Below are positions 13,269 through 31,927 of a stretch of 43,056 nucleotides of DNA, in pieces; within the stretch, counting starts at the first letter, position 1; every line of letters begins with the position of its first letter. The notes below the pieces were generated by a model that did no database searches, was not told the DNA's origin, and worked only from the letters and a program-made list of their open reading frames with translations. Both the position numbers and the translations under genes were made by a program. The stretch comes from a virus, in IMG/VR virus record IMGVR_UViG_3300025168_000176, positions 1-43,056 of that record; one strand, written 5' to 3'.

Positions 13269-13413
13269 GAAAATACAACATAATGGATGGTGGTACTTTC
13301 ATAATATTCAAATGAATCATTATAAACAACCACCATGGTCGTGGAGATTTAATGTTGAGTATGATCCTAAACTATGTAAAAAGAAAGAGGAAAAATATGA
13401 TAAAACCAAGTAA
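13240..13413 (+). CDS. Small aromatic-rich gene overlapping both neighbours
   Basis: A 57-residue frame from ATG at 13240 to TAA at 13413, overlapping the previous gene by 29 bases and the next by 17. It covers the otherwise non-coding gap 13269-13396. The protein is rich in Trp, Tyr and His (HNGWWYFHNIQMNHYKQ, then PPWSWRFNVEYDPKL), a composition unlikely for random AT-rich DNA, with a basic tail (KKKEEKYDKTK). Function unknown. Confidence 0.6.
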   Translation: MKQKLLKLAKKIQHNGWWYFHNIQMNHYKQPPWSWRFNVEYDPKLCKKKEEKYDKTK

Positions 13414-13882
13414 CAACAGAAAAATACTTTACAATATAACAGAAGCATTTAAATCTGTGATAGATAATGATATAGATGAAAATAGTAGTCTATCTTATTT
13501 ACCACAACCAAGTGCTATGTTAAATGAGTACGTAAGGTACATTAATATGCTTATGAAAAATCGTTTAAAGATAGGTGCGGCAAGCTACGGCGAAGAAGTA
13601 CCTATTACTAAATACGATTTAAAAGTATGGGAGGAAAGACACGGTAGATCGAGAGATAACTTGACAGAAACACTAGAAGAATTAGTGGATGCGTTAGTAT
13701 ATTTATCAGCTGAGTCACAACAACCATTAGAAAATACATTGCATGAGTTAGGCAATGAATATAAGCAAGAAATAAACAGGTCAGTAAAACACCTATGTCT
13801 AAGTGTATTACATTTATTATACGCTAATGACAATAAAGTTACATACGTTAACGAAATAAAAGAGGAGATAAATAATGGCTGA
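13397..13882 (+). CDS. Helical protein, possibly MazG-like
   Basis: A 161-residue protein. The ATG at 13397 (MIKPSNNRKILYNITE) is preferred over the upstream ATG at 13352 because it follows AAGAGGAAAAAT and keeps only a short overlap with the preceding gene. The middle has NRLKIGAASYGEEVPITKYD and, further on, LEELVDALVYLSAESQQP. The E-E-L-x-D-A-x-x-Y pattern after a Gly-x-x-x-Y-G stretch recalls MazG-like nucleotide pyrophosphohydrolase fragments common in phages, but the full metal-binding ExxE...ExxD set is not obvious. The call is tentative. It overlaps the start of the Ubl gene by 8 bases, so it may be translated together with the conjugation cassette. Confidence 0.55.
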   Translation: MIKPSNNRKILYNITEAFKSVIDNDIDENSSLSYLPQPSAMLNEYVRYINMLMKNRLKIGAASYGEEVPITKYDLKVWEERHGRSRDNLTETLEELVDALVYLSAESQQPLENTLHELGNEYKQEINRSVKHLCLSVLHLLYANDNKVTYVNEIKEEINNG

Positions 13883-14096
13883 GCTATTAACTATCGAATT
13901 GATGTATGACAGTGCAAACTTCTCTACACTTGAGTTGCCATCAGACGTTCTAACAGTAGGACATCTGAAGACATTCAAGGGTATCGAAGGTTCTAACGTG
14001 ACAACAAATGTTGGTGGGGTCGAAAGATCTGACAGCTATGAGTTGCCACAAGGAGCATTTGTTGCAATTGTTACTACTAATAAAGTCGGAGGATAG
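13875..14096 (+). CDS. Ubiquitin-like beta-grasp protein with exposed C-terminal Gly-Gly
   Basis: A 73-residue protein ending ...TTNKVGG, so its last two residues are Gly-Gly with nothing to be trimmed off. Predicted order of elements fits the beta-grasp fold of ThiS/MoaD/ubiquitin: strand LLTIELMY (4-11), strand STLELP (17-22), helix LTVGHLKTFKG (26-36), strand VTTNVGGVERS (42-52), a L-PQG-AF turn and the final strand FVAIVTTNKVGG (62-73). In ThiS the matching region reads N-G-x-x-V-x-R-S, then L-x-D-G-D-x-V-x-I-V, ending GG, a close parallel. Such proteins are adenylated and thioesterified at the C-terminus by E1 enzymes. A strong AGAGGAGA ribosome site precedes it. The next three genes encode the E2-like, JAB and E1 partners. 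It could be a protein modifier or a sulfur carrier; the former is favoured because no sulfur-using enzyme is nearby. Confidence 0.8.
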   Translation: MAELLTIELMYDSANFSTLELPSDVLTVGHLKTFKGIEGSNVTTNVGGVERSDSYELPQGAFVAIVTTNKVGG

Positions 14097-14201
14097 GATT
14101 TATTAGTTGACATCGTGAGTAAACATAAGGTGACTATTTTATCGTGGGGGTAAATAGTTGCCTTAGTTTACATATATCCATTAAAAAAGTAAAGGAGTAC
14201 C
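14097..14201 (+). promoter_or_regulatory. Spacer with hairpin and shared G-rich motif
   Basis: 105 non-coding bases between the Ubl gene and its partners. ACTATTT (14133-14139) pairs with AAATAGT (14153-14159), displaying TCGTGGGGGTA (14142-14152) in and beside the loop. This G-run motif is shared, inverted, with 10978-10988 and 22311-22321. A TTGACA-like TTGACAT occurs at 14108-14114. It could be an internal promoter or an element that adjusts the ratio of the modifier (made in excess) to the enzymes. Confidence 0.35.
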
Positions 14202-16154
14202 ATGTTAAAGAAGAAATTACCAGCTGTATATACTCTAAACGACAAAGTTATGTTTGACGTTAGTGAATATCAGCTAGAACCTGAAATTATAGCTAAAGCT
14301 ATTACTGAAGGTCCGCAAAAGAAAGTTCTACACAATTTAGAACGAATTAATAATCGTTATATTAAACCCAAAAGTATTTATCCTATTAGAACTAAACTAG
14401 AAAACTTACCTGCTTTACAAGTAACAGAAAGTTTTAAGTGGAAAAGAGGATATAGAGAAACTATTTTTGATGTTATTAACAATAGATTGGGACAACAAAA
14501 CAAGTCAGCTGCTAGTTTACAAGTATTATTGAGCAGTAGACCTGAAAGAATATCTCATGATATACAAGATTTCAAAAATCAAGTTATAGTTGTGGATAAT
14601 ATGATGAGAGAATTACGAAAGAATAAAATATCATTTGCTAAAAACGATAAATTATTCAAAAATGTCTGGGAAACTTATTTTGATAGATTAAAACAAAAGT
14701 TTAATCATTTTCAAGATAATATACTAGAACACATAGGTCCTAACATGTCTTTCGATTGGTACATACAATCACCAACGAAACACAAACAGAGACATTATGG
14801 CAATGATACAGTAATGTTTGATGATGAGTTATTTAACGAATCATTTATATGTTATGAGATATTATGGAAAGATGCAAAGGTTCCAGTTATATCTAGCGAA
14901 GGTGAATTATTACAAGATATTCCATGTGGAGATATGGTGTTTAAATTCAACGTTAGATTGTCTGCTTTAATGAAGGAGCTAATCAGATCTTATTATACAG
15001 TTTATAAAGAACAAGATGACTGGAATGATATAGATTTTGATACTGTATTACAAAACGCAGAGATATCTAGAATGGAAAGATGCACACCATTAGGTAGTGC
15101 AAACAACGATAGATTCTCTCAAGACCCTCAAGTATATAATAGAAGAGTGTCAAGAGAAGTTGGCTTAATGTCCAGAGGTATCATGATAAATTCTATAAAT
15201 ACTGAGCTAAGTCGTAATATATGGAATGATTCTGAACCTGACTTGTTAAACCATCCTTTTATTGGTGCATCAAGACTAGGTAGAAGTCAAGACAGTGTAG
15301 AAAGTTACATATCTGACAACTATATAGGTAAACATTATGTAGAAACTAGTGTGCCTCAACATAGTTCTGTTAGTAAATATCTATTTCCAATACAAATGAA
15401 TACTATTTGTTGGGGTGATTGTCACTTTGATATATGGAGTTCAATAATTAATCTTAGGTTTCCTGAGTTAGTTATGACTATGCATAATTGGAATAGATAT
15501 ACTATACCAGGTGCAAATCCATTAAATAATATACGTCAATTGCATTTTGGAATGCCTGGTGATTACAACAAGGAATACAGAAGAGTTAGCAGTGCTAACA
15601 CAAATACTTGTTTTAGTATGCAAGTAAAATCGTTAGATCCATCAAGACCAATGAAAGATAACTATACTGCTATGTTACATAATGAAAGTGTTATCTACGA
15701 AGAAGATGGGACATATAATCGTGACTTAGATTTAGCTAAAATCATGGAAATTCTATCATATTGTGATAAAATTAAATGTACAGCTAGAAATGAAGGATGC
15801 GATAAATATGCTAATTACGCTCCAATGCTAAATAATATAATCAAAACAGAAGAGGATAAATTCCCGTTTGGTGATGATATATATGGTTTATTAGATCAAG
15901 CTTTGGACGAAACATCAGAAGTTGTTGAAGAAATACACAATGACCTTGATGAATTGGAATCTATTATGCATGAAATAGATGGAGATGAATTACCATTTAG
16001 TGAAGTAGATGACGTAGATGCATTTCATACATCAGATGAAATACATGAAACATTAACTAATCATAATAATCAACTAAGTACAGATCTTACTGACGACGAA
16101 TTGAGAGATCAAATGCGTACTTGGTTTACTGCCAGAGGAGGAAACAATGGCTAA
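14202..16154 (+). CDS. Large protein of the Ubl cassette with E2-like signature
   Basis: A 650-residue protein starting MLKKKLPAVYTLNDKVMFDV after AAAGGAGTACC. Residues 380-450 carry the best clue: VPQHSSVS (384-391), NTICWGDC (400-407), then a helix IWSSIINLRFPELVMTMHNW and a NPLNNI turn. Prokaryotic E2-like domains typically show H-P-H-V-S, then x-CWG or CLG with the catalytic cysteine, then a helical stretch and Y-N-P-x-D. By that comparison His387 would be the HPN-type histidine and Cys403 the thioester cysteine. A second cysteine group (C521, C526, C533) could bind metal. Residues 555-625 are strongly acidic. The N-terminal 380 residues match nothing recognised and could choose substrates. 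It lies between Ubl and JAB genes, overlapping JAB by 8 bases. E2 assignment is inference. Confidence 0.5.
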   Translation: MLKKKLPAVYTLNDKVMFDVSEYQLEPEIIAKAITEGPQKKVLHNLERINNRYIKPKSIYPIRTKLENLPALQVTESFKWKRGYRETIFDVINNRLGQQNKSAASLQVLLSSRPERISHDIQDFKNQVIVVDNMMRELRKNKISFAKNDKLFKNVWETYFDRLKQKFNHFQDNILEHIGPNMSFDWYIQSPTKHKQRHYGNDTVMFDDELFNESFICYEILWKDAKVPVISSEGELLQDIPCGDMVFKFNVRLSALMKELIRSYYTVYKEQDDWNDIDFDTVLQNAEISRMERCTPLGSANNDRFSQDPQVYNRRVSREVGLMSRGIMINSINTELSRNIWNDSEPDLLNHPFIGASRLGRSQDSVESYISDNYIGKHYVETSVPQHSSVSKYLFPIQMNTICWGDCHFDIWSSIINLRFPELVMTMHNWNRYTIPGANPLNNIRQLHFGMPGDYNKEYRRVSSANTNTCFSMQVKSLDPSRPMKDNYTAMLHNESVIYEEDGTYNRDLDLAKIMEILSYCDKIKCTARNEGCDKYANYAPMLNNIIKTEEDKFPFGDDIYGLLDQALDETSEVVEEIHNDLDELESIMHEIDGDELPFSEVDDVDAFHTSDEIHETLTNHNNQLSTDLTDDELRDQMRTWFTARGGNNG

Positions 16155-17043
16155 TTTCTATATGAAAGAAAAAGTTTGGGATAAACTTCAAAATTATTCA
16201 CAATACGCTTATGATGAACATAAATCAGAAATAGGTGGTATGTTACTTGCTGAGAAAGATAAGGATGATCGATGGAAATTGCACTCTCCTACTATTCTTA
16301 AGCAAGAAATTAGTGGTGGTAATACAGCTCTCTCTAAAGAAGCTTTAGCATCATATTACGTTAAAACAGCTATGAAACATAAAAACAGAGATATTAAATT
16401 CGTATGGTGGCACAGTCATCATACGATGGATGTTTTCTGGTCTCAAACTGATTTGACAGCAATTGATGAAATGAATCAAGGTGATTGGTCTATTTCTTTA
16501 GTTGTTAACTTGCAGAAAGAATACAAGTTAAGAGTAAATGTCTGGAAACCTTTTCCAGCAGTAGTTGATGACATAGCATTAGATATAGTGAGAAAAGAAC
16601 CTCAAATACCTAAAGCTATTGTTAATGAAGTAGAAAAGTTGTGTACTAAACCTTCTACTATTGTAGTAAGATCAAACAATAATCATCTTGTTAATAGTAA
16701 TTATAGATATGGTTCACAATTAAATGTGTTTCATGATAAAGCTATGATAAGATTTGAGTCTAAAGTTGATGACATTATGTTAGATTTTATCAATGGTTCA
16801 ATTAAGTACAAAAATGTAAAACATAAAATTAAAATGTTGAACTTCGAATTGCAGGAGCATAATATGAAAGTATCTATACCTCCAACGCATGAAGAACTTG
16901 AAACAACATCTTGTGTTTTAGATGCAGAAGATTATTTTCATAGAATTTATGAAAAATGGTCTTATGAAGATAAATTGATTGAAAAGAACGAAGATGCAGA
17001 CGAAATAAGATATTATAATGCTGCTTGGAGTTCAAATGTCTAG
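16147..17043 (+). CDS. JAB/JAMM metalloprotease (Ubl deconjugase candidate)
   Basis: A 298-residue protein. Residues 1-135 form a JAB (MPN+) domain with a complete JAMM motif: Glu28 in HKSEIGGMLL, then H89-S90-H91 in KFVWWHSHH, seven residues, Ser99 and Asp102 (FWSQTDLTAIDEM). This E...HxH-x7-S-x2-D set binds the catalytic zinc in enzymes that cut isopeptide or Gly-Gly peptide bonds of ubiquitin-like proteins. Residues 135-298 are an extra helical domain of unknown kind. A strong AGAGGAGG site precedes the ATG. The gene overlaps its neighbours by 8 bases on each side. Because the Ubl already ends in Gly-Gly, removal of the modifier from targets is more likely than maturation. A cell-wall or tail-assembly JAB is less likely: there is no NlpC/P60 part and the gene is in the early cluster. 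Confidence 0.88.
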   Translation: MANFYMKEKVWDKLQNYSQYAYDEHKSEIGGMLLAEKDKDDRWKLHSPTILKQEISGGNTALSKEALASYYVKTAMKHKNRDIKFVWWHSHHTMDVFWSQTDLTAIDEMNQGDWSISLVVNLQKEYKLRVNVWKPFPAVVDDIALDIVRKEPQIPKAIVNEVEKLCTKPSTIVVRSNNNHLVNSNYRYGSQLNVFHDKAMIRFESKVDDIMLDFINGSIKYKNVKHKIKMLNFELQEHNMKVSIPPTHEELETTSCVLDAEDYFHRIYEKWSYEDKLIEKNEDADEIRYYNAAWSSNV

Positions 17044-17698
17044 TTTATCTATGAGATATAATGATATATGTGACAATTTTAGTGATTACACTTATCATAT
17101 ATTAGGTTGCGGTGCTATAGGTAGTGCCGCAGCTACACAATTAGTAAGGATGGGTGCAACAAACCTATGCTTCTATGACATGGATAAAGTTGGAAGAGAA
17201 AACATAGGTGTTAGCTCTTACGATACACGACATGTAGGTGAATATAAATGCGATGCTTTAAAAAGTATATGCTCTGATATCACCAATGATCTTGATATTA
17301 AATGTTATAACGAACGTTTTGTACAATACAGAAGAGAAGGTAATGACATTGTAATATTAGGATTTGACTCTATGAAAGATAGACTTGAAGCAGTTCAATC
17401 TATACTTAAATTAAGGTCACCAATGTATTTAATAGATGGTAGAATGGGTGCTGAGCATTATCAGCAGTACACATTTAATAAACCTACTATTAAACAATAC
17501 TTGAAAACATGGTATTCAGATGAAGATGGTAGTCATGAGCCTTGTAATGCGAAAGCAACAAGCTATTGCAGTAATATGAGTGGAAGTTTTATCTCTAATA
17601 TAATTAGAAAGATATTAACTGATAGCCCATATCACAAGGAAATGTCATTTGACTTTCCTACGAGTACTATCAAAACTAAATACTATACTACTGTGTAA
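17036..17698 (+). CDS. E1-like ThiF-family adenylating enzyme
   Basis: A 220-residue enzyme expected to adenylate the Ubl C-terminus with ATP. The ATG at 17036 is chosen because GGAG lies five bases upstream; an ATG at 17018 would add six residues. Rossmann motif HILGCGAIGSAAA (Gly24, Gly26, Gly29), then acidic strand FYDMDKVGRENIG with Asp48, Asp50 and Asn56, then HVGEYKCDAL with Lys71, and GFDSMKDR with Asp111 and Arg116, all in the order of the E1/MoeB/ThiF superfamily. Two cysteines, Cys170 (HEPC) and Cys178 (SYC), lie where the thioester cysteine would be. Odd: the usual Arg-Gln after N-x-x is replaced by serines (NIGVSS). No zinc CxxC pairs of MoeB type. Short length implies a single-domain homodimeric E1. 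Ends the cassette; a hairpin follows. Confidence 0.85.
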   Translation: MSSLSMRYNDICDNFSDYTYHILGCGAIGSAAATQLVRMGATNLCFYDMDKVGRENIGVSSYDTRHVGEYKCDALKSICSDITNDLDIKCYNERFVQYRREGNDIVILGFDSMKDRLEAVQSILKLRSPMYLIDGRMGAEHYQQYTFNKPTIKQYLKTWYSDEDGSHEPCNAKATSYCSNMSGSFISNIIRKILTDSPYHKEMSFDFPTSTIKTKYYTTV

Positions 17699-17787: not shown

Positions 17788-18363
17788 ATGGCTAGATTCA
17801 ATATAAGTGATTATACATTAGTAAAAGATCGTTTAATTGCCTTTCGTGATCAATTCCCTCAATGTTCGATAGAAACAACTTTGTTAGCAAGTAACAATAT
17901 AGTTGATTCTCCTACAGGTGAGATGTGTAATGAATACGTTATGAAAGCAGTTGTAACACCAAATCCATTAGCAGAACCAGAGGTCCAATATACAGGACAT
18001 GCTGCAGAACGTGATAATGGACATTTCGTAAATAAATCATCAGCAATAGAAAATTGTGAGACAAGTGCGGTAGGTCGTGCTTTAGCTCATTGTGGATTTG
18101 GTGGTGATAAAAATGGTCCGAGTGCAGAAGAAATGTCAAGTGCTCTTACCAAACAAGCTAAATTTAAAATAACTACAAGAGAATTAGATATTTTAGGTGA
18201 AGCTTTTGCATCAGCAAAGCCCTTTTTATCAGATAAGGAAATAAAAGCTTATAATGATAGAAGAGGTTCAAACTACTATGACACTAAAACTAAATGGTTT
18301 AAATCTGTAATGCATTTCTTAATGCTTACAAAACCTAAACCTAAAGCTCAAAATGTCAAGTAA
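17788..18363 (+). CDS. ERF/Rad52-like single-strand annealing protein
   Basis: A 191-residue protein (MARFNISDYTLVKDRLIAFR onward). The characteristic block is VNKSSAIENCETSAVGRALA near residues 72-91, followed by HCGFGGD. The set T/S-S-x-x-E-x-x-E-T-S-A-x-G-R-A-L-A plus the N-terminal V-x-x-R-x-x-x-F, then F-P pattern marks a widespread phage recombination protein group usually placed with ERF/Rad52-type annealers. It would coat single strands and promote annealing during replication or genome circularisation. The gene is followed by an SSB-like protein and primase-helicase, consistent with a replication-recombination set. C-terminus is basic (KPKPKAQNVK). Family placement is from motif memory. 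Confidence 0.65.
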   Translation: MARFNISDYTLVKDRLIAFRDQFPQCSIETTLLASNNIVDSPTGEMCNEYVMKAVVTPNPLAEPEVQYTGHAAERDNGHFVNKSSAIENCETSAVGRALAHCGFGGDKNGPSAEEMSSALTKQAKFKITTRELDILGEAFASAKPFLSDKEIKAYNDRRGSNYYDTKTKWFKSVMHFLMLTKPKPKAQNVK

Positions 18364-19164: not shown

Positions 19165-19430
19165 TGGCAATGTCTGCTAAAGATATTGTTCTTTTATGGA
19201 TTGAAAACAGAGCTAATGGAAATAATGTTATGCCAGCTTTCTGGAGTTACGAATTTGAAGAAAAAATCGTAATATACGGTAAGTTAGCACATCAAAAAGT
19301 ACATACTGCAAGTACATATGCTAGAGCGTTTAGAGATATTCGTTCTAGTGATGCATTAAGCAGATTTGGTTTTGCATTAGAAGAAATTAAAGAAGGTAAG
19401 GTTAAAGGATGGAAAATAAACAGACTATAG
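19164..19430 (+). CDS. Small replication-cluster protein, unknown
   Basis: An 88-residue protein. A GTG at 19164 overlaps the SSB stop by one base; an in-frame ATG two codons later (19170, MSAKDIVLLWIENRANG) is an equally possible start. The sequence is helical, with YGKLAHQKVHTASTYARAFR and then a basic C-terminus (KVKGWKINRL), like a small winged-helix or DNA-binding accessory. It overlaps the primase-helicase start by 22 bases, so its product may act with that enzyme. No family recognised. Confidence 0.6.
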   Translation: MAMSAKDIVLLWIENRANGNNVMPAFWSYEFEEKIVIYGKLAHQKVHTASTYARAFRDIRSSDALSRFGFALEEIKEGKVKGWKINRL

Positions 19431-21205
19431 TAGAAATAGTAAAAGGTAAAATACATAACCGAAATAAAGTAACTACTCTTGAGCAATACAGAGAGCTCAG
19501 AGAGTCTAATGCTTTTAAAGGTGAAATGTATAGATCCTATTACTCTTTTGATAAGACTTTTACAGATTTTGTTATAAAAAACAAGTCAGTAAAAGGATTC
19601 GATGGGCTTGTTTACGTTGATAATATAATAATAGACATAGACAAAGGAGAAATTGATGACGAAAATCTACAAGAATATTTACGACATAGTCTTAATGACT
19701 TGTTCGATTTCGGTATTGATAGTAACCATGTTAATGTTTGGTTCAGTGGTAGTGGCTATCATATTGAGTTACTTAATGTATTTGGGTTTCAACCAAATAA
19801 AAACTTGCATGAAAAAGTCAAAGCTACTATGAGTGAGTATTTTAGTTTTGGAGATAATATCTATGATAAAACTAGAATAATTAGATCAAAATGGTCTTTA
19901 AATACTAAAACGGATTTATATAAAATATGGATTCCTTTACAATATGTATGGGATTTATCTTATGCAGATGTAAAGAAGATTGCTCAATCTAAGAATGCAT
20001 ATAATAAATTTGTTAAGAGTAAAGAACACTTTTGGTCTACTTATAATGATGATACTACTCAAATAGAACCTTATTTAAATAGACACGTTCTATCAAAACC
20101 TACCAGTGTTATGGTAAATAACACACCTATTAAAAGTGGAACTACCAATTCTATGGTGACTTGTGTTCAACATATCTTTAATGAGGGTCCTGCTCAGGGT
20201 TCTAGAAACATGAAGATGATGAGAATGATAAGTTCATACAAAAGAGCTGGTATTCCATTTTTGGTGGCACTAAATGGCATGATTACTTGGGCCAACGGTG
20301 AGTTAGAAAGTGATGAAATAGCTAGAACGGTAACTAATGTATATGAAAATCAGTATAGTTATGGATGTGATGATAGTATTCTTATGGAATATTGTGATCC
20401 TAAATGCATTCATTTCAAAAGAAAAGATTATATGTTAGATATTAAAGATGTTGATTCATTAGAAGATAGTTTTAGAAAATATGTTATGACAGACTTTACT
20501 AAGAAAAGTATAGATCTATCAGAGGTATTTGATGGGATTAATCAATACTTATTTAAGCCAGGAGAATTAATAATATTTAGTGGTGATACTGGTATGGGTA
20601 AAACAGCGTTAGTACAGCAAATAATAACTTTTTGTAAAAAAGATACGTTATTTCTATCGCTAGAAATGAATGAAAATTTAACTTGGAGACGTTTTGTTCA
20701 AATAGTAGAAAATAAACCAAAAGAATGGGTTTACGATGCTTATAAAACTGATAACGTTTCCTTTAAAGATAAATTGCAACATATTAGAATAATGACAATA
20801 GCACCAGAAATTGAAGCAGTAAAGAAAGTAGTAGCACAATATGAACCTAATGTTCTAGTTGTAGATACCACTGACGAATTGCAAGTAGATGGAAATAAGG
20901 GAGCTATTGAAGAACAGAATACAATTATAGATGGACTTAAACAGATAGCACAAAGAAATGATACTATTGTTATAGCAATACATCATGTTAATAAAGCTAG
21001 TGCTGCACAAGGATCTATTGGTTTACATTCATTAAAAGGTTCTTCTAATGTTGTGCAAAAAGCAGATAAAGTTATGGTAGTAAAGGGAAACAGAAACGAA
21101 ATGCATCGAACTATTACTTCGGAAAAATCTAGAGACGAAGCAAGGTTTGAGCTAATTACTACTTTCCAATACAAAACTATGACCTTTGAGCGATTAGATA
21201 TGTAA
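19409..21205 (+). CDS. Primase-helicase: AEP-type primase fused to RecA-fold helicase
   Basis: A 598-residue replicative enzyme. N-terminal archaeo-eukaryotic-type primase: IIIDIDKG with Asp76 and Asp78 as metal ligands, VWFSGSGYHIEL (the S-G-x-G-x-H motif, residues 111-121) and DKTRIIRSKWSLN (153-165). A cysteine set C320, C329, C333 (YCDPKCIHF) may hold metal between the domains. C-terminal DnaB/Twinkle-like helicase: Walker A GDTGMGKT at 392-399, Walker B VLVVDTTDE at 482-490, HHVNK at 525-529, and GLHSLKGSSNVVQKAD resembling the DnaB motif 4. It would unwind the fork and lay primers in one polypeptide. No DNA polymerase gene is visible in the window, so the host enzyme or a gene outside must elongate. 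The start overlaps the preceding gene. Confidence 0.85.
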   Translation: MENKQTIVEIVKGKIHNRNKVTTLEQYRELRESNAFKGEMYRSYYSFDKTFTDFVIKNKSVKGFDGLVYVDNIIIDIDKGEIDDENLQEYLRHSLNDLFDFGIDSNHVNVWFSGSGYHIELLNVFGFQPNKNLHEKVKATMSEYFSFGDNIYDKTRIIRSKWSLNTKTDLYKIWIPLQYVWDLSYADVKKIAQSKNAYNKFVKSKEHFWSTYNDDTTQIEPYLNRHVLSKPTSVMVNNTPIKSGTTNSMVTCVQHIFNEGPAQGSRNMKMMRMISSYKRAGIPFLVALNGMITWANGELESDEIARTVTNVYENQYSYGCDDSILMEYCDPKCIHFKRKDYMLDIKDVDSLEDSFRKYVMTDFTKKSIDLSEVFDGINQYLFKPGELIIFSGDTGMGKTALVQQIITFCKKDTLFLSLEMNENLTWRRFVQIVENKPKEWVYDAYKTDNVSFKDKLQHIRIMTIAPEIEAVKKVVAQYEPNVLVVDTTDELQVDGNKGAIEEQNTIIDGLKQIAQRNDTIVIAIHHVNKASAAQGSIGLHSLKGSSNVVQKADKVMVVKGNRNEMHRTITSEKSRDEARFELITTFQYKTMTFERLDM

Positions 21206-22342: not shown

Positions 22343-25300
22343 TTAATTAATTTTAGAAAAAGTTTGCTCTTGTTCTACCATTTCTTCAGTTTCTTCTTCA
22401 ACAAATGAATCTAAATGTTCTCTTCTCATCTTAGCTACCTGATGTAATGGTAGTCCTGTCATAAAATCTACAGCCATAGCAGGAGACTGTATAGTTCTAT
22501 AACTATCTCTAGCTAATCTACCAAATGGAAAATATGTAGCTAATTGATATTTAGCGAAAGTATCCATATCACCATTCAATATAGCTGTTATAGGAGCAGT
22601 CACGAAACGAGCAGCGGGAGGTGTTATAATTTGTAATGGTGCTAAATAAGGAGAAGGATACTGATTAAAGAAAGCCCTATCTCTTGCTTTTTCATCACCA
22701 AACAACATAGCAGCAGTATCTTGTAACCAGTTCATAGGAGGAGATAATGCGTATTCAAATAAACTAGCTGTAAATATAGTTCCTAAAGCTAAACTAAACA
22801 GATCAAAAGTAAACTGTCTTTGTGCTTTTTTAGTAGATTGAACATCTAATGCCCATCCATCTACGTTAGCATCTTTATAAAGTTTAATACGTCTACCTAT
22901 ACTATTCCAAGCATAAGGTTGAAATCTTGTCATTACACGACCTAAAGACGTGTTAGCAAAGTTAGGTCTATATGTAGCTTGATATAAGAATTGTGAAGCT
23001 TGTACACCCTTTAATGCATAATCTATTAAAGCTGGACTATTAAAAGGAACTTCTACAGGTTCTAAGTTTTTTTTCATAGCTATATAGTTAGCAAGAAAAG
23101 CACGTCCACGAAGTTTACGCTCAGAATAAGACATAAAAAATGAACCAGCTTTTTCAATAGGTATGTTTATTTTAAAATCTCTAGCTAGTTCCATCAAAGT
23201 TTTATCTTTCATATTATTGTAAGATTCTTTTGATTCTCTAACTTTAGGATCTTTAGAAGCTTTATTAATTCTTCTTACAGCTTCTTTCCAAAATCTTTTT
23301 TGATTTTGTTTACCATAAACACTATCTAAATTTACCATATCTAAAAACATTGAATCATATACACCTAAAGACTCTAACCAATTATCTATATCTTTTTTAG
23401 TAGTAATGGATTGTTCTTTACTTTTACCAGTTACTGGATCAAAAAAAGTAAACTTAGCGTTTTTACCAAACATATTAGATACCATCCATTCTGCATTACC
23501 AGCATTTCTAAATGTACTCCATCCTACGTCAGATATAGTATTCATACTACCACCATACATGTTAGTTAACAATGTTTTAGGTGCTGACAATAATGAATAC
23601 AATTCAAATTTGCCTTCAAGATCACTGAACTGTTTTAGTTTTTGTTGTATAGCATAATGTCTTTGTTTTCTATCTTTAGGTAATTCACCTAATAATCTAC
23701 CACCAAACTTATCATTTATCTTTTCAAGATATTTAGTTCCTACTTCATCACTCATAGCATGATATATAGTACCATACTTACCAGTTATATTAACATCTTT
23801 CAATAATCTTTTAGCTTTTATTAATCTAAGTTCTTGTATTCTTTTTTCTGCACCTTTTATACTACCTACAGACTCTAAAATATTCCATTGTTGTGTAGTT
23901 GGAACTGATATAGCTTCTTCCATGTCCAACAATAAATCTTTTTCATATTTACCCAAACGTAATCCATCAATCTTTAATCCATTTTTTACATATTTTTTAA
24001 ATAACGGAACATCTTTTTTATTTATACCGTGTAAATTAAATGCACGATAACTTGACATACCCATCATGTTTATAAATGCATCACGCATATAATTAGACCA
24101 ATTTCTAGCAAAATCTTGTCCTTTATGTTGATAATCAAAGTCTCTTAGGATCAATTCAGATCTAAGACCAGCTGTGTTAGTAAGCATCATTTTAAAGAAT
24201 CCACTAGTATAATTTCTTAAAGCTTGTAAATCTTTTTGGTAATAAGGCATATATGTTTCACCACGACTTCTAACATTGTTAGCACTGTAGTCTCCTAATA
24301 ATGCATCTTCGTTAGTTCTACTCAACAAATCAGTAATTTGTTTTTCTGCCATAGCTTGTCCAGGAGTTATTTTAGATTGTTCTAATCTTTCAAATTCTCC
24401 CATCTTATGTTCTCTGTAATAAGTCATAAGTTTTTCATCAGTTTCAAAACCAGGTCTTTTATATGCTTTCATAACTCTCAATGCAGAAGGTATAGACTCT
24501 GGGTCTTGTCTAAATCTTTCTATTTCTGATTCTATTTGTTCTTTTTTCCATGCTTCTAATTTAGGAATATTTGCTTTAATTCTGTGATGGTCTAATCTAG
24601 GCCAGTAACCTTCTAATATTTCACCTACTAATGCTTTTTCATAGTAAGTTTTTTTACTACCTTCTTTATTTTTACTGAATATAAGTTCTTTGTTAACTTC
24701 TCTTTTAACCCAATTAGCAGCTTTACTGTTTAAAGGTTTGTTAAGATCAACTGCTTCTAATCCATTAACTTTATTAATTCTTACTTGTAGTCTATCTTTT
24801 AAATTGATATGAAATTTCATAAACCTATGATCGTTTACACTTGGTAATAAGTTTTCCATAACTTCTCTTGGTGATGCCTTAGCATTGAATGTAGCATATT
24901 CAATAACTTTGTGTATTAATTCTTCTCTAATCAAACCATTTTTATCTAAGAAAAGTTTTTCCATTTGTTGGGTTTTATATCCAGGACTTTCTTTAGATTG
25001 CACCCTAGCAGGTAATATTTTCCATTGACCTATTCCAGGCATCTTAGTTGATTTCAATACTTTTTCTAAATTTAAATGTCTTGATTGTATATAAGTGCTG
25101 TTTACATCCTTCAATAAGGTTTGAACTCTACCTTTAATACTTTCAACAAAGTCACTACCAGATACCATTTTAGACTTACCTTGACCAGGTGATTGTTTAT
25201 TATCCATAGGAAACATAACACCATCTTTAGCTATTAAAGAAAGTGTAGCTTCAGTATCTTTATATGATTTCTCTATAGCTCTTCTACTTACTTCGTCTTG

Positions 25301-28300
25301 TTTTTGGTATTTATCAGAATACTTACCATTGTTATATTCTATTCTATTAACAGCTGACTCAAACAATAAATCTACATATTGATTAATAGCAGGATCATCC
25401 TTAATTGTAAATTCAAACAAACCATCAATTCTTTTATTTAAAAAGTCATCTGATGCTTTTTGTAACTGATCCATTTTATCTATAGTAAGTCTACCTAATT
25501 CTAATGTACTTGTAGGTATTTTTCTAGATTGTTCAGTAATTCTTCCAAATTTATCTTTAACGGGTTTAGCATATTGCATGTAAGAAGTTTTGTCAAAACG
25601 TTCCATTTCTTTACCTATTTTTTCATAGTTAAAAAGTTGTTCCCATTTCCCTGGACCTCTAGCTATATTACCTAACTTGTCAATAATATCGGTTTTACTA
25701 TATTTTATTTCTAATGCATTGTTAAATGATTTTAATTCATTAAGACTCATACTTCTAATGTCTGTTGCTAAACCAAAGTTTCTTGCTTCTGATACAACTT
25801 GAAAATCATATTCTAAGTTTTCTAAACTGCCAGGATTGTTAGAAATAATATCTAGCAATTTTTTAATTTCTTTATCTTGTTCTGTAGACCTATAGCCAGT
25901 TTTGTTTAAATTAATTTCTTCTAAAAAATTAAATTGTGGCATCATATCATCTACTTTTTCAATAGTATCTCTAAATTTTCTTGGTCCTGTTCTAGTATCC
26001 TGTACTAATCGTTCACCATCTTTAGTAACTTCTTTAGCTGGTTCATATAAAATTTCATGTATTTTAGGATCGTATACATTTACATCGTAATCTATTTTAT
26101 CTCCATCTTTTGTTATTAGTTTCATATCATCTGCTCTTAAAGACCCTCTTACTACGTCTGTAGGACTATATACAGCTTGTATGTTATCTATACCACCATC
26201 TTGTAAAAATTTTATAATAGATTCTTTTTTAGTTAAATTATTTACATTTGTACCAATTTCTTTTATAGCTTGCTTTATTATTGAATCTGTACTTTCATAG
26301 AATTTTTTTACATTTTCAGTTTTTAATGCTCTACTTCTGGAAATACCTGTTAGATGAGGTCTAAGTCTTTTAAACGAAGCTGCTTTTTCTTTAAGCAATC
26401 TATTTATTTTAGAATTTCTAGGTGCACTAATTTCTGATTGTGGATTTATTTCAAGAAGTTTCATTTCAGCTTCAATAGCTTTATCTAATTTTTTTCCTGC
26501 ATCGTTAAAACTTTCTTCTTGACGAGCTATGTATTCTGTTCTTGCATTACTTGTTGGTACTGCCATCAACATAGCATCTACTAAATATTCATAATCCTTT
26601 AAAGGTATATTTAGTTCAGACATTCTAGCACCTCTGTCGTCTTTAAAATCTTTTATAAGTCTATTTATGTCAGCATTACTAATTTGGAACTCTTCCATTT
26701 TTTCAGTTCTTTCTGCACCAAGGAAACTAGCTTCTTCTCTCATTAAACCTCTTTGTGTATCAAAATAACTTTTTATTTCATAAGCAAAATCAAATATTTC
26801 TTTAGAATAAGTAGCTGGATCTTGTATACCTAGCTTGTCTAATGCTATTTCAAATTTGTTAGCTATGTTTAAAGCTTGTTTAACTGATACGTACTCGTGT
26901 AATTTTGCATATATTTTATCAGGACCAGCTTCATCTCTAGATAGTTTCATTAAATCTATTTCAGCTTCCAATCTATTTGCATAAGAGTCTTTAATACCAA
27001 ATTGTCTAAATAATGGATCTTTCATCATTTGGTCTCTAAGGTTTTGTGCTAGAGCTGCTACCATTTCATTTGCTCTGCTTTGATTACCAGAATAATATCT
27101 TACAGGGTTTATATTTAAATTTTCTAATTGTGAAAATACTTTAGCTACCTTATTAAAGTATGGACCTTTATCACCAATAAAATCTAAATAGTCATCTGCT
27201 ACTTGCTTTATTTCATTTACGGAAGACATTCTATCTCTTTGTGTTGAATATCCTTTTTCTCTCATTTGATTTACCACATCAAATAACTTTATTTCTTTTA
27301 TAACTTTATGATAAGATACTTTAGAATAATCTAATTCTTCAAATCTTGTACTAGGTCTCTTGGTAATAGGATCGATACCTTCGATTTTAGCTTCGATTTT
27401 AAAATATTTTTGTAACATAGCTTTAGCCATATTTTCAGGATAATCTAATTTTTGGAATACTGCAGCATCAGCTAAAATGTTTACACCTTCTGCTATATCA
27501 TCTTGCATTTTTTTAGCAGAATCATTTTTTACTTTTAAACTTACTTTATATACTGCAGCAGTAGGGTCTCCAGTTATTTGTTCAGCTTTGTCTAATCCAA
27601 AATACTTTCTTTGACTAGGTAAGAAAGTCTCTATTACTCTAGCATTTTGTGCTTTACTAAAATATGTTCTAGTATTTTTACCCGAACTATGTGTCATTAT
27701 TTCTCCACCCTGTGACAACAATACATCCATCATTGTAGAGTGTGTAATACCAGAGTTTACAAAAACTCCCATTTTTTGTTTAGCCCTACTCATCATTCTT
27801 GTAAGCTTTATTCTTTCTGACGGAACCATCATTTTAATAATTTCAAAACTATTAATACCAGTATCAGCGTCAGCAAATTGTTTATTTTCTTTATAAGGTT
27901 CTACTATACTTTTAAATGTATCTCCTACTGTAGTAAAGTCTCTGGTGTTACCTGTTATAGGGTCAGTAAATTCTGATTCAAAATTTCTAAATCCTTTTTT
28001 AATTCCTTCTCCCATGTTTTGATATACAAACACAGAGTCAGCATCTTTGTCTGCACCACCTAAATAGTGGTCATTTTTAGATGTAGTTACAACACCATAT
28101 CCTCTTCTACCTGTAAACCCTGCAAATCTTAATACTCTTGTACCACCTAAAGAACTGTTAGGAGATCTAACCATTAAAAACTCTAATGCTTTTTCATAGG
28201 CTACTAAATTTTCACTACCTGCTCTACCTTGAATAGATTTTAATCTTTCATATTCACTAAATGCTTTTTCCAATGTAGTTTTATTTCCTAATACTTCTAC

Positions 28301-31300
28301 TTGTAAAGTTTTAAGATTGTCGTGCAACATAAAAGTTTCATCTGTTAACTCTTTAGCAAATTTAAATCTTATTTCTTCATCTCTTAAAGCTAATTTACCT
28401 TGAAAGCCGTACTCTGCTTGAGGTCTAGTTACTCTTTTAATAGCGTAGTTAGCAATAGATTTTCTTACATAATCTATATTTTGTGGATCAAGTATAGCAC
28501 CAGTAGAATACTCTACAGAGTTTAACATTTCAGGTAGTTTAAAATTTTCTATAGATAAATTAGATAACACTGATTCCATATTACCAGATTCACTAGAAAC
28601 TTCTATAGTTTCTCCTCTTTCTAATATCTTTTGTATTAATTTTCTAGCAATAGGAGTATCAATATCTTTTAAACCATCGTTAATTTCTTTTAAACCTAAT
28701 GATTCTATTTCAAAATCTATTGTGTCGTCTTGTTTTTTCAAAGCTTTTATAAACTCTGAATTAACTATATCATTACCAACAACACCTCTTTCTACCATAA
28801 GGTCATATTCAAACTTAAAATTGTCTGCGTCTTGCCTACCCATATCTGTAACCATTTGTTCGTATATATACTTGTCAAACATTTGTTTTAATATATTTGG
28901 TGCTTGACTCATCTTGTTACCAGATTCATATACGCCATAGTCTATATACAATTCATCGGGTCTTACGTTCAATATAGTTCCGTCTTTTGCAATACGTTCT
29001 CCATTGACTCCGTGTTGTATTTTACCAAAAGTTATACCTCTAGACGATTTTGCTGCAGTAGCACGTATTGTTCCATGAATACCTTTCTTAATCATTAAAG
29101 CATTCTGTGCATCTGAGGCTCTAAATGTACCCGTCTTCATGATAACGTTACCTACTTCGGCCTTAGGCATAGTAAAACCAGATATCTTCATAAATCCAGC
29201 CGTTTCATCTAAAAAGTTTTTTTCTATTGTTCTATCAAATACATCTTGTCTAAGTAATAATCCTGCATCAGCACCAGATTGAGATGGTTTGTCTTCTATT
29301 TTAAACTTGCTATTAATATCTTCAATAGCCATAATTTTTAATTCATTGTTTTCTGCATTAGGTATATTTTCTGTAATCTCAATATTTTGTCTTATGTTAC
29401 TACCTTGAGCCATATGTAAATACTTATTCATCTTTTGTATGGATGTGTATTGTGGATCAGCTATATACATACGCATAGCCCTTGTAAGATTATCTGCATT
29501 TCTTGGAGTGTTTACTGATAAATGACCAGACTCTATTAATTGGTATATCCAATTAGATAAAATTTCTGTTTTACTTTTTTGAAATTTACTAGAACCTAAT
29601 ATTCTAATTTCTTCTCTAAATTGATTTTGAATTGTATTCCAAAATTTATTTAATTCTGTTGGTTTAATATAATGAGGTTGAGCTACATCTACTTCTTTAG
29701 TAGTAAAAGGTATTTTATGAATTATTAAATTACCAGTATCTTTAGCACCACTATAAACATAAGAACCTACGTCTTTAATAAGTTTTGTATTTAATTTAGC
29801 TATAGCATCATCTGTTACTAAATCTGTATACTTTCCATCTTTACCTGGTTTGTATCCAAATATACCTTCTCTTTTAAAAGTATATCTATCTTTTTGATTT
29901 GCACCACTACCATATTTATATTGTTTATCTACCATATAAACATCATCTGCTATAACACGAATTTCTGCATATTGTTCTTTGTTTGCAAAAGAGTGTAAAT
30001 CAAACATATCGTATATATCGTTAGCTTTATTAGGGGAACCAACAACATCTAAATCTTTTCCATACAAATCAGTAGTAGGTTTTACTCTTACACTAGCTTT
30101 TTTAGGATTACGTAAATCTATTTCTAATCTAAATAATGGTGCTAAAGCTTCCTTCATTTTTAAAAACTTACCTAAATTTTTTCTTATAGCTTCAAACTTT
30201 GTAATAGTTACAGTAGTACCGTCTCTTTTTACGGTTATGGTATCTGTTAGCTCTGGATACTTTAATGTTACTTTGTCTGCAAAAGCTAAGAAATCATTCT
30301 CTACATCTTTAGATAAATCATATAAATTTATTTTAATATCATCTAAGTCTTTATATTTAGATTCAGAACCCTTTTGTATTTCTTTTGCAATAACATTTAA
30401 ATTGCTATTACTTGGCACTTCCAAGCCTTCTGTTTCCAATCTGTTGTTTTTAATGTAATTATCAAATTGAGTAAAGTCGTAATCAATATGCTCTAGTATA
30501 GTTTTTTCATGTACGTCTTCTGATTCATTTTCCTTTTCATTTTTAGGTCTTCTACCTTTAGGTATGGGTCCTACAAATTCTTCTGATTGATCTGCTGCTT
30601 CTACTTCTGATTTTTTAGCTCTTTCTTTTTGTATAGCCTCATATTGTTTTCCTGTTAATTTTTCAATGTTAATACCTTGAGCTACAGCCATTTCTTTTAT
30701 TTCGTTAATAGCTTCTATATCTAATACATTTCTAAAGTTTAATCTTTGTTCGTTTTGTAGAGTATCAGTAAAACGCATTATGTAATTTTGGTCTGGTTTA
30801 GTAAGAGAGTTAAAGTCAGGCATTTTCTTTATAGCTTCTCTAGCTTTTTCTAAATTTTTGTTTTGTGGTAAATTATGTTTAGCTAACCATCTATCTCTAT
30901 CTATAGTTCCTCTTCTTTGTGCAGTGGCTCCAAAAAATGTACCTAATAAATACTCATATATTTGTTCTGGTAATGGTTGTCCTTGCATAGTAGCTAAACC
31001 ACCTTGAAATGCACCACCAGCAACACCTTTAGCTACCATATCTAATCCTCTCAACCTTGCTCTTGTTTGATTTTCAGATACGTTTTTAGCTACACCTCTA
31101 ATAATTCTTTTAGCCACAGGTGCTGTTTTAGGATTGATAAGCATGTTACTTATATTTAAATAGTTACCTATACCTCCAAACATAGCACCAGCTGCAAACC
31201 CATGCATAGAAGATTCTACCATAGCTTGAGGTCCTTCTTTCCATTCAGATACACCCAATGCAATACCTAAATGCAAACCTTGTTCACCTATGTTTTGAAA

Positions 31301-31927
31301 TGTTTTATTAGCAGCAATACCCTTGCTTAAGAAACCACTAGTGACTAATTGTGTTTCTCCGACTTGTTTTTTTAAAAACTCAGTTGCTTTATCAGCTACT
31401 TTCATAGGAACTGATTGCAAAGAAAATGCTTTAGGCCCTACTTCTTTTCTTAAAAAACCTGGAGCTATTTCTCCACCTTTTCTTAAAGCCTGCGTAACAC
31501 CAGCAGCACCACGTAATGAAGCTCTTTTTGCAGCTGCTACTGGCACATAAGCTCCCATAGAAAGAGCACTAGCTATTACATCAGGAGCAAAACCTATTAA
31601 ATGCCCTAATCTATTAGCAATGTTTTCTCCACTAGTGTCTCCATCTTCTGCCCAACCTAACGTAGTAAAACCTTCTACTAAACCTGAAGTGAATTGATTT
31701 AAGACGCTAACAATATTAGAATCTCCAACTTCCATATTTCTATTAAATGGTCTATCTGCAGATGTAAGTCTTTTCTCTATATGATCTACATCTTCCTCAC
31801 TATATGAAGTAGGGTCCATCTTGTATTGGAGTTCTAGTCTATTAACATAGTCATCAGAAGTAATTATACCTCTGTTAAGAAGTTCCTCAAGATAAAGTAT
31901 CTTAGGATTTTTAATAATTTCTGACAT
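22343..31927 (-). CDS. Giant 3194-residue virion protein with two-barrel RNA polymerase signature
   Basis: The largest gene in the window. Preceded by a GAGG ribosome site and by T7-core-like internal protein genes, so it is probably packaged and ejected with the DNA. Residues 1-330 are Ala/Gly-rich with amphipathic stretches (FAPDVIASALSMGAYVPVAA). Residues 945-1400 hold a polymerase-like order: MIKKGIHGTIRATAAKS (945-961), DELYIDYGVYESGNKMSQ (991-1008), MVRSPNSS (R1254, P1256), GGADKDADSVFVYQ with D1293, D1295, D1297, then SRAKQKMGVFVNSG near 1386. In bacterial beta-prime the equivalents are NRAP and NADFDGD, 35 residues apart; here the distance is 39. The rest is helical and unassigned. 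Near the C-terminus is a membrane-like helix (FSLALGTIFTASLFEYAL). Alternatives: polyvalent injected protein with unrelated enzymes. The polymerase call rests on motif order only. Confidence 0.6.
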   Translation of the reverse strand: MSEIIKNPKILYLEELLNRGIITSDDYVNRLELQYKMDPTSYSEEDVDHIEKRLTSADRPFNRNMEVGDSNIVSVLNQFTSGLVEGFTTLGWAEDGDTSGENIANRLGHLIGFAPDVIASALSMGAYVPVAAAKRASLRGAAGVTQALRKGGEIAPGFLRKEVGPKAFSLQSVPMKVADKATEFLKKQVGETQLVTSGFLSKGIAANKTFQNIGEQGLHLGIALGVSEWKEGPQAMVESSMHGFAAGAMFGGIGNYLNISNMLINPKTAPVAKRIIRGVAKNVSENQTRARLRGLDMVAKGVAGGAFQGGLATMQGQPLPEQIYEYLLGTFFGATAQRRGTIDRDRWLAKHNLPQNKNLEKAREAIKKMPDFNSLTKPDQNYIMRFTDTLQNEQRLNFRNVLDIEAINEIKEMAVAQGINIEKLTGKQYEAIQKERAKKSEVEAADQSEEFVGPIPKGRRPKNEKENESEDVHEKTILEHIDYDFTQFDNYIKNNRLETEGLEVPSNSNLNVIAKEIQKGSESKYKDLDDIKINLYDLSKDVENDFLAFADKVTLKYPELTDTITVKRDGTTVTITKFEAIRKNLGKFLKMKEALAPLFRLEIDLRNPKKASVRVKPTTDLYGKDLDVVGSPNKANDIYDMFDLHSFANKEQYAEIRVIADDVYMVDKQYKYGSGANQKDRYTFKREGIFGYKPGKDGKYTDLVTDDAIAKLNTKLIKDVGSYVYSGAKDTGNLIIHKIPFTTKEVDVAQPHYIKPTELNKFWNTIQNQFREEIRILGSSKFQKSKTEILSNWIYQLIESGHLSVNTPRNADNLTRAMRMYIADPQYTSIQKMNKYLHMAQGSNIRQNIEITENIPNAENNELKIMAIEDINSKFKIEDKPSQSGADAGLLLRQDVFDRTIEKNFLDETAGFMKISGFTMPKAEVGNVIMKTGTFRASDAQNALMIKKGIHGTIRATAAKSSRGITFGKIQHGVNGERIAKDGTILNVRPDELYIDYGVYESGNKMSQAPNILKQMFDKYIYEQMVTDMGRQDADNFKFEYDLMVERGVVGNDIVNSEFIKALKKQDDTIDFEIESLGLKEINDGLKDIDTPIARKLIQKILERGETIEVSSESGNMESVLSNLSIENFKLPEMLNSVEYSTGAILDPQNIDYVRKSIANYAIKRVTRPQAEYGFQGKLALRDEEIRFKFAKELTDETFMLHDNLKTLQVEVLGNKTTLEKAFSEYERLKSIQGRAGSENLVAYEKALEFLMVRSPNSSLGGTRVLRFAGFTGRRGYGVVTTSKNDHYLGGADKDADSVFVYQNMGEGIKKGFRNFESEFTDPITGNTRDFTTVGDTFKSIVEPYKENKQFADADTGINSFEIIKMMVPSERIKLTRMMSRAKQKMGVFVNSGITHSTMMDVLLSQGGEIMTHSSGKNTRTYFSKAQNARVIETFLPSQRKYFGLDKAEQITGDPTAAVYKVSLKVKNDSAKKMQDDIAEGVNILADAAVFQKLDYPENMAKAMLQKYFKIEAKIEGIDPITKRPSTRFEELDYSKVSYHKVIKEIKLFDVVNQMREKGYSTQRDRMSSVNEIKQVADDYLDFIGDKGPYFNKVAKVFSQLENLNINPVRYYSGNQSRANEMVAALAQNLRDQMMKDPLFRQFGIKDSYANRLEAEIDLMKLSRDEAGPDKIYAKLHEYVSVKQALNIANKFEIALDKLGIQDPATYSKEIFDFAYEIKSYFDTQRGLMREEASFLGAERTEKMEEFQISNADINRLIKDFKDDRGARMSELNIPLKDYEYLVDAMLMAVPTSNARTEYIARQEESFNDAGKKLDKAIEAEMKLLEINPQSEISAPRNSKINRLLKEKAASFKRLRPHLTGISRSRALKTENVKKFYESTDSIIKQAIKEIGTNVNNLTKKESIIKFLQDGGIDNIQAVYSPTDVVRGSLRADDMKLITKDGDKIDYDVNVYDPKIHEILYEPAKEVTKDGERLVQDTRTGPRKFRDTIEKVDDMMPQFNFLEEINLNKTGYRSTEQDKEIKKLLDIISNNPGSLENLEYDFQVVSEARNFGLATDIRSMSLNELKSFNNALEIKYSKTDIIDKLGNIARGPGKWEQLFNYEKIGKEMERFDKTSYMQYAKPVKDKFGRITEQSRKIPTSTLELGRLTIDKMDQLQKASDDFLNKRIDGLFEFTIKDDPAINQYVDLLFESAVNRIEYNNGKYSDKYQKQDEVSRRAIEKSYKDTEATLSLIAKDGVMFPMDNKQSPGQGKSKMVSGSDFVESIKGRVQTLLKDVNSTYIQSRHLNLEKVLKSTKMPGIGQWKILPARVQSKESPGYKTQQMEKLFLDKNGLIREELIHKVIEYATFNAKASPREVMENLLPSVNDHRFMKFHINLKDRLQVRINKVNGLEAVDLNKPLNSKAANWVKREVNKELIFSKNKEGSKKTYYEKALVGEILEGYWPRLDHHRIKANIPKLEAWKKEQIESEIERFRQDPESIPSALRVMKAYKRPGFETDEKLMTYYREHKMGEFERLEQSKITPGQAMAEKQITDLLSRTNEDALLGDYSANNVRSRGETYMPYYQKDLQALRNYTSGFFKMMLTNTAGLRSELILRDFDYQHKGQDFARNWSNYMRDAFINMMGMSSYRAFNLHGINKKDVPLFKKYVKNGLKIDGLRLGKYEKDLLLDMEEAISVPTTQQWNILESVGSIKGAEKRIQELRLIKAKRLLKDVNITGKYGTIYHAMSDEVGTKYLEKINDKFGGRLLGELPKDRKQRHYAIQQKLKQFSDLEGKFELYSLLSAPKTLLTNMYGGSMNTISDVGWSTFRNAGNAEWMVSNMFGKNAKFTFFDPVTGKSKEQSITTKKDIDNWLESLGVYDSMFLDMVNLDSVYGKQNQKRFWKEAVRRINKASKDPKVRESKESYNNMKDKTLMELARDFKINIPIEKAGSFFMSYSERKLRGRAFLANYIAMKKNLEPVEVPFNSPALIDYALKGVQASQFLYQATYRPNFANTSLGRVMTRFQPYAWNSIGRRIKLYKDANVDGWALDVQSTKKAQRQFTFDLFSLALGTIFTASLFEYALSPPMNWLQDTAAMLFGDEKARDRAFFNQYPSPYLAPLQIITPPAARFVTAPITAILNGDMDTFAKYQLATYFPFGRLARDSYRTIQSPAMAVDFMTGLPLHQVAKMRREHLDSFVEEETEEMVEQEQTFSKIN

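Follow-up and report, generated by a model that had tools for sequence, protein, structure and literature searches.

A candidate ubiquitin-like conjugation cassette in phage replication operons

The stretch of DNA analysed here (hereafter the window) covers positions 1 to 43,056 of the 43-kb virus record IMGVR_UViG_3300025168_000176, and carries four plus-strand genes in the order Ubl (ubiquitin-like protein), E2-like, JAB and E1. We propose, at roughly even odds (about 0.5), that these genes constitute a working, phage-encoded Ubl conjugation pathway serving phage DNA metabolism. The proposal is based on a gene order kept in two phage lineages, invariant catalytic residues and the predicted Ubl fold, together with an E1 profile nearest to Ubl-activating enzymes and a JAB profile nearest to Rpn11 deubiquitinases. 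It also draws on the homology of Ubl, JAB and E1 across the two lineages, on a weak fold link joining their E2-slot families, and on the frequent presence of single-stranded DNA (ssDNA)-annealing genes directly after E1. The four genes are:

13875 to 14096, plus strand: Ubl, 73 amino acids, beta-grasp with C-terminal Gly-Gly, as judged from the predicted fold and invariant residues
14202 to 16154, plus strand: E2-like protein, 650 amino acids, with candidate thioester cysteine C403 (codon 15408-15410), HPFI at residues 351-354, and P440
16147 to 17043, plus strand: JAB/JAMM zinc isopeptidase, as judged from the JAMM residues, an Rpn11-like profile and PADLOC JAB models
17018 to 17698, plus strand: E1 of the ThiF family, real start possibly 17036, with candidate thioester cysteine C176 (codon 17543-17545)

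The original prediction of four consecutive plus-strand cassette genes was correct in all open reading frames (ORFs) and residue numbers. It had also stated that the enzyme genes overlap by 8 bases each, which holds for E2-like and JAB; for JAB and E1 the overlap comes to 26 bases when E1 is read from its first ATG (17018), or to 8 from the ATG at 17036, about where the alignment of E1 relatives begins. The Ubl gene overlaps its upstream neighbour by 8 bases (13875-13882) and is separated from the E2-like gene by a 105-nucleotide gap that holds an RNA hairpin.

The cassette is conserved in two phage lineages

A five-sequence E1 alignment yielded 405 relatives among viral contigs and the JAB family 345, and the best 80 of the 405 E1 loci were examined. 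Among these 80 loci the order Ubl, E2-like, JAB, E1 is near-constant on contigs long enough to show it, and inserted genes are few; the exception is L006, which lacks the E2-like gene, and at L056 and L073-L075 the Ubl assignment is further upstream or doubtful. The kind of contig and the neighbours found in BFVD lead us to refer to this group as the marine lineage.

The E1 also matches proteins of crAss-like Steigviridae (cr111_1, cr106_1, cr126_1, cr128_1, DAC15 and others) and of Flavobacterium phages (Fpv1, Fpv3, FpV4, FpV21 and others), whose loci show the identical four-gene set and order under annotations that go no further than 'hypothetical', 'contains metalloprotease domain' or 'thiamine biosynthesis protein ThiF'. 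A search with the E2-slot protein of this second lineage gave 61 loci; of those with enough flanking sequence, nearly all have the order Ubl, E2-slot, JAB, E1, and in phiCrAss001 the E2-slot gene adjoins the metalloprotease gene. A plasmid search with the crAss E1 gave no match. Profile-profile comparison identifies clear homology between the two lineages for Ubl (E-value 8e-6), JAB (2e-13) and E1 (4e-35), and none detectable for the E2-slot proteins. In the crAss/Flavobacterium Ubl only one Gly is invariant; it usually lies within K-x-[KS]-[SA]-G, and in most cases a long extension comes after it. The recurrence of the four-gene set and order in many marine and crAss-like gut phages suggests that a large number of phages operate a protein-tagging pathway of their own. 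In FpV21 (L090, 2668-4960) a 750-bp ORF on the reverse strand interrupts the JAB gene, which is intact in Fpv3 (L005); the insert may be an intron or a homing element.

Ubl, JAB and E1 carry the signatures of their families

The window Ubl ends in ...TTNKVGG and has no Pfam match. It had been described as a beta-grasp protein ending in Gly-Gly, with structure prediction proposed as a check, and the AlphaFold2 model indeed has the beta-grasp arrangement b-b-a-b-b-b with a predicted local distance difference test score (pLDDT) of 85. Nearly all of the top Foldseek matches are ubiquitin-like (E-value about 1e-3); Caldiarchaeum ubiquitin leads them, and they include MTH1743, Bacteroides fragilis ubiquitin, ISG15 and the parkin Ubl, as well as small archaeal beta-grasp proteins and TtuB. 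K-x-G-G occurs in 51/51 Ubl relatives, K70, G72 and G73 being invariant; it forms the exact C-terminus in 28/51, while the other 23 are extended by 1-31 residues (for example L027, ending in ...KTGGLIRFYQELLSQ), which would fit a need for a peptidase to uncover the Gly-Gly. With its predicted beta-grasp fold and C-terminal Gly-Gly, the window protein thus has the features of a ubiquitin-like modifier.

The JAB protein carries the full isopeptidase pattern E...H-x-H-x(7)-S-x(2)-D within a JAB domain, and the JAMM motif had been called complete with exact numbering: E28, H89, H91, S99 and D102 are invariant in 72/72 JABs. On the single window sequence Pfam Prok-JAB reaches 3e-4, below its gathering score, whereas the family profile finds an archaeal Rpn11-like deubiquitinase structure at 3e-5, and PADLOC JAB models match at 9e-7. 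The protein may perform both deconjugation and Ubl trimming.

The E1 displays the adenylation domain, nucleotide-binding motifs and conserved cysteine of the E1/ThiF superfamily. Its GCGAIGS stretch (G30, G32, G35) and D54, D56, N62 and K77 correspond to the GxGxxG and D-x-D-N-K motifs first noticed, Pfam ThiF matches at 1.3e-17, and the best NCBIfam match is ThiS adenylyltransferase (5e-17). The family profile retrieves UBA6, UBA5, ThiF, Cap2 and BubCD from PDB. The nucleotide-binding motifs, C176 and C184 are kept in 79/79 relatives; in the cross-lineage alignment C176 is invariant and C184 is not, which makes C176 the better thioester candidate.

The 650-residue protein is a probable E2

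The largest cassette protein had been called E2-like for a CWGD-type signature, and this motif stands up to comparison: C403 lies in 'NTICWGD' and is invariant, together with P440, in 58/58 members. Most members also have an [HF]P[YF]I motif upstream of C403, and an NP-type motif lies downstream. The E2-like proteins of L063 (492 amino acids) and L045 are more compact. Ubiquitin-conjugating (UBC) enzymes carry HPN[IV] ahead of the catalytic cysteine, and the E2-like protein, with its invariant cysteine and HPN-like motif, resembles them in motif only. The predicted model (pLDDT 72, moderate confidence) is large and mostly helical and places C403 after a short strand and before a helix. In the crAss/Flavobacterium E2-slot proteins H135, C151-x-G153 and E-S-x-x-G-x-P are invariant (53/53). 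Patterns made for each family ([HF]P[YF]I or HSH[LIV], then C-x-[GD]) occur in about 70% of that family's own members, and among 190-211 control proteins of 300 or more amino acids no more than one carries them; they were drawn from the families themselves and hence are not independent evidence.

A search with the window sequence alone found no relatives, single-sequence patterns being too strict. A fold search against BFVD placed six viral proteins first (E-value below 1e-14), followed at rank 8 by a 420-residue protein and at rank 12 by a 435-residue cr128_1 protein, both with weak E-values (0.12 and 1.7). These two equal in length the E2-slot genes of Flavobacterium phages and cr128_1, and if length identifies them correctly, a weak fold link may connect the E2-slot families of the two lineages. 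Both families are absent from the libraries used. We retain the name E2-like on account of the C403 motif, the operon position and the weak fold match, and consider it likely that the protein works as an E2.

Genomic context points to DNA metabolism

The contig encodes a tailed phage, as indicated by TerL (5e-78), portal (1e-63) and major head protein (3e-26) matches. A search of some 85,000 genomes of bacteria and archaea found no E1 relatives except two short, weak ThiF-like matches in Bradyrhizobium; a prophage origin was rejected on this ground, and a lytic lifestyle is likely. The original prediction had described the cassette as an unusual occupant of a lytic-phage replication module; the replication module is well supported and the lytic lifestyle is the likely one, and the arrangement is far more widespread than a single sequence could show. 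The genes concerned, and two further features of the window, are:

17788 to 18363, plus strand: phrog_11717 protein (PHROG 1.7e-26), in the slot held by Sak4- or Erf-type ssDNA-annealing proteins in relatives
19409 to 21205, plus strand: DnaB-type primase-helicase (phrog_239 6e-23, DnaB_C 1e-11), of a cluster (c2) present in 72 contigs
13352 to 13882, plus strand: upstream gene, of a family (c12) that precedes Ubl in 17 contigs and whose family matches are weak and inconsistent
22343 to 31927, minus strand: ORF of 3194 amino acids that dominates the late region

Behind E1, 58/79 marine-lineage contigs have a gene that falls into ssDNA-annealing clusters, as judged by the cluster representatives (Sak4-type in 46, Erf-type in 12), and 15 others have one of the phrog_11717 type, directly or beyond one small gene; more conserved genes and a DnaB-type primase-helicase lie downstream of this slot. 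The crAss/Flavobacterium cassettes have genes for primase, helicase, ATPase or Sak4, uracil-DNA glycosylase and exonuclease as neighbours. The annealing protein is exchanged between families whereas the cassette is retained, which suggests that the cassette takes part in DNA metabolism and is not a mere accessory. Its fixed place beside genes for recombination and helicase functions likewise favours replication or recombination over host takeover or anti-defence. For the window gene at 17788-18363 itself, an Erf-type annealing protein was considered and rejected, the profile comparison being negative.

Proposed mechanism and alternative explanations

In the proposed pathway, E1 would adenylate the Gly-Gly end of the 73-residue Ubl and hold it on a cysteine, for which C176 is the best candidate; the 650-residue protein would accept it on C403 and pass it to target lysines; and JAB would trim tailed precursors such as those of the 23 extended relatives, strip the tag and recycle Ubl. 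The pathway would be active during replication, and its likeliest targets would be proteins of replication and recombination, whether of the phage or of the host, candidates being the annealing protein and the ssDNA-binding or helicase factors from neighbouring genes. Conjugation, rather than thiolation, is the probable chemistry, whereas replication or recombination proteins as targets are a tentative suggestion, held at somewhat less than even odds. More doubtful is the full scheme of a reversible tagging of the phage replication and recombination machinery, common to marine and crAss-like gut phages, employing two new E2 families and constituting a viral analogue of the control of DNA repair by SUMO and ubiquitin.

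Several observations weigh against a conjugation pathway, of which the E2 assignment is the weakest part. The 650-residue protein shows no significant similarity to E2s by any approach used: Foldseek of its moderate-confidence model against PDB gave no match to a UBC fold, hmmscan of all 56 E2-like sequences no significant Pfam match, and hhalign comparison with six UBC enzymes, controlled by shuffling columns, nothing significant, while the profile search recommended in the original prediction, here with the family profile against PDB, gave no significant match to known E2s. The closest relative, L006 (76% E1 identity), passes from Ubl through the hairpin element also present in the window directly to JAB (1375-2714), and the E2-like gene is absent from its whole 27.8-kb contig, itself a fragment; L006 may be a true variant without an E2, or the gene may be missing through the assembly or the end of the contig. 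The window's gene downstream of E1 is not a proven annealing protein.

An anti-defence function, in which the cassette would counter host Bil, Bub or CBASS Cap2/Cap3, for example through JAB deconjugation or a competing Ubl, appears unlikely: accessory anti-defence genes usually vary in place, whereas this cassette is fixed within the replication operon of two divergent lineages, and a full four-gene set with its own Ubl exceeds what a deconjugase needs. The similarity of E1 and JAB to CBASS E1-E2 and JAB models (PADLOC 1e-12 and 9e-7), the weak BilD match of the crAss E1 and the known action of host Ubl-type defence systems on phages (PMC10097602) lend it what plausibility it has.

A sulfur-carrier system, with E1 thiocarboxylating Ubl in the manner of ThiS/MoaD for nucleic acid or cofactor modification and JAB releasing Ubl, would fit the ThiF-type E1, whose best NCBIfam match is the ThiS adenylyltransferase, the small archaeal beta-grasp proteins and TtuB among the Ubl fold matches, and the Ubl, JAB and E1 genes of L006, which lacks the E2-like gene. 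It is nevertheless quite improbable, as nearly all other relatives have an E2-like protein with an invariant cysteine, the best Ubl matches are ubiquitins, and no sulfurtransferase or desulfurase was recognised in the scanned neighbours, many of which carry no assignment. Least probable is that the 650-residue protein has a role other than that of an E2, such as binding DNA or substrates or being a substrate itself, with E1, Ubl and JAB acting without a classical E2: the missing E2 homology, the undetectable relationship between the E2-slot proteins of the two lineages, the large helical model and L006 are set against an invariant cysteine with flanking motifs in both lineages (in patterns made from these families), the weak structural link between them and an operon slot equal to that of PRTRC-B.

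If the conjugation pathway is real, phages run their own ubiquitin-like signalling, and its substrates could be sought through predicted lysine remnants in infected-cell proteomics. The logic of bacterial Ubl conjugation operons is here a core part of the replication operon in abundant phages, including the laboratory-grown DAC15 and, through its E2-slot and metalloprotease genes, the laboratory-grown phiCrAss001. The two previously unrecognised candidate E2 families would also be relevant to the origin of E2 enzymes.

RNA elements in the Ubl/E2-like gap

The gap between Ubl and the E2-like gene contains:

14119 to 14171, plus strand: RNA hairpin, fold z -3.1

Fold z falls below -2 in 69% of Ubl/E2-like gaps versus 58% of other gaps (p = 0.03), with a mean of -3.0 after Ubl versus -2.3 in control intergenic gaps (L006-L085 set). 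Folding in the remaining gaps of these contigs is nearly as strong, and the hairpin was therefore rejected as a special regulatory element; strong intergenic hairpins, commoner than in shuffled sequences, are a genome-wide habit of these phages.

A separate structured RNA occupies the Ubl/E2-like gap of L032, L034, L036, L041, L044, L045, L052, L053, L055 and L057, and is also found at L065:8113 and in at least 120 viral contig stretches; it is absent from the window. Its layout comprises a core, CCAAYAACUGGUCCU...RUAAGUCC, a variable hairpin, GGCAAAGGAAUAUGUGAG and a closing 10-bp helix, in which both-sided changes occur at 10/10 pairs (98 compensatory cells versus 37 in shuffles). It has no Rfam match and is probably undescribed.

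Comparison with known systems

Complete Ubl conjugation operons are known in bacteria, often as defence or mobile-element modules. Bil systems encode Ubl, E2, JAB and E1 as separate genes, as does the phage cassette; however, Bil acts against phage, whereas the window cassette is carried by one. PADLOC gives no BilA-C match, finds BilD only for the crAss E1 (weakly, at 1e-5), and for the window E1 shows no Bil model among the 25 matches listed of 33. CBASS type II shares related E1 and JAB domains through Cap2/Cap3, but in the phages E1 is a separate gene instead of a fused E1-E2 Cap2 and a dedicated Ubl is present; no CD-NTase or effector occurs in the scanned neighbours, which sets the cassette apart from CBASS type II. 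The lambdoid TAPI and TAPK likewise represent a phage-encoded Ubl and JAB, but these are tail assembly genes without E1 or E2 (PMC1779556). A similar gene set occurs in the type-6d operons that Iyer et al. 2006 described (PMC1779556).

PRTRC also unites Ubl, E2-like, JAB and E1 in one operon, and its order E2 (PRTRC-B), JAB, ThiF in L353 equals that of the phage cassette. Membership in this type, which the original prediction had raised, does not follow: PRTRC-B and PRTRC-C models find no match, the ThiF model scores 25.5 bits against a cut-off of 144.75, and the E2-like protein shows no significant match to four PRTRC-B sequences, that of L355 being in the wrong frame. A search of open-access literature, with subscription journals and bioRxiv largely uncovered, found no paper tying phages, crAss-like or other, to a Ubl/E2/JAB/E1 cassette. 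Close counterparts are the ThiF loci of crAss-like and Flavobacterium phages, which share order and replication setting with the window and differ in the E2-slot family. Unlike PRTRC, the cassette described here belongs to a tailed phage and forms part of its replication operon; what is new is the integration of a candidate conjugation cassette into the replication modules of phages.

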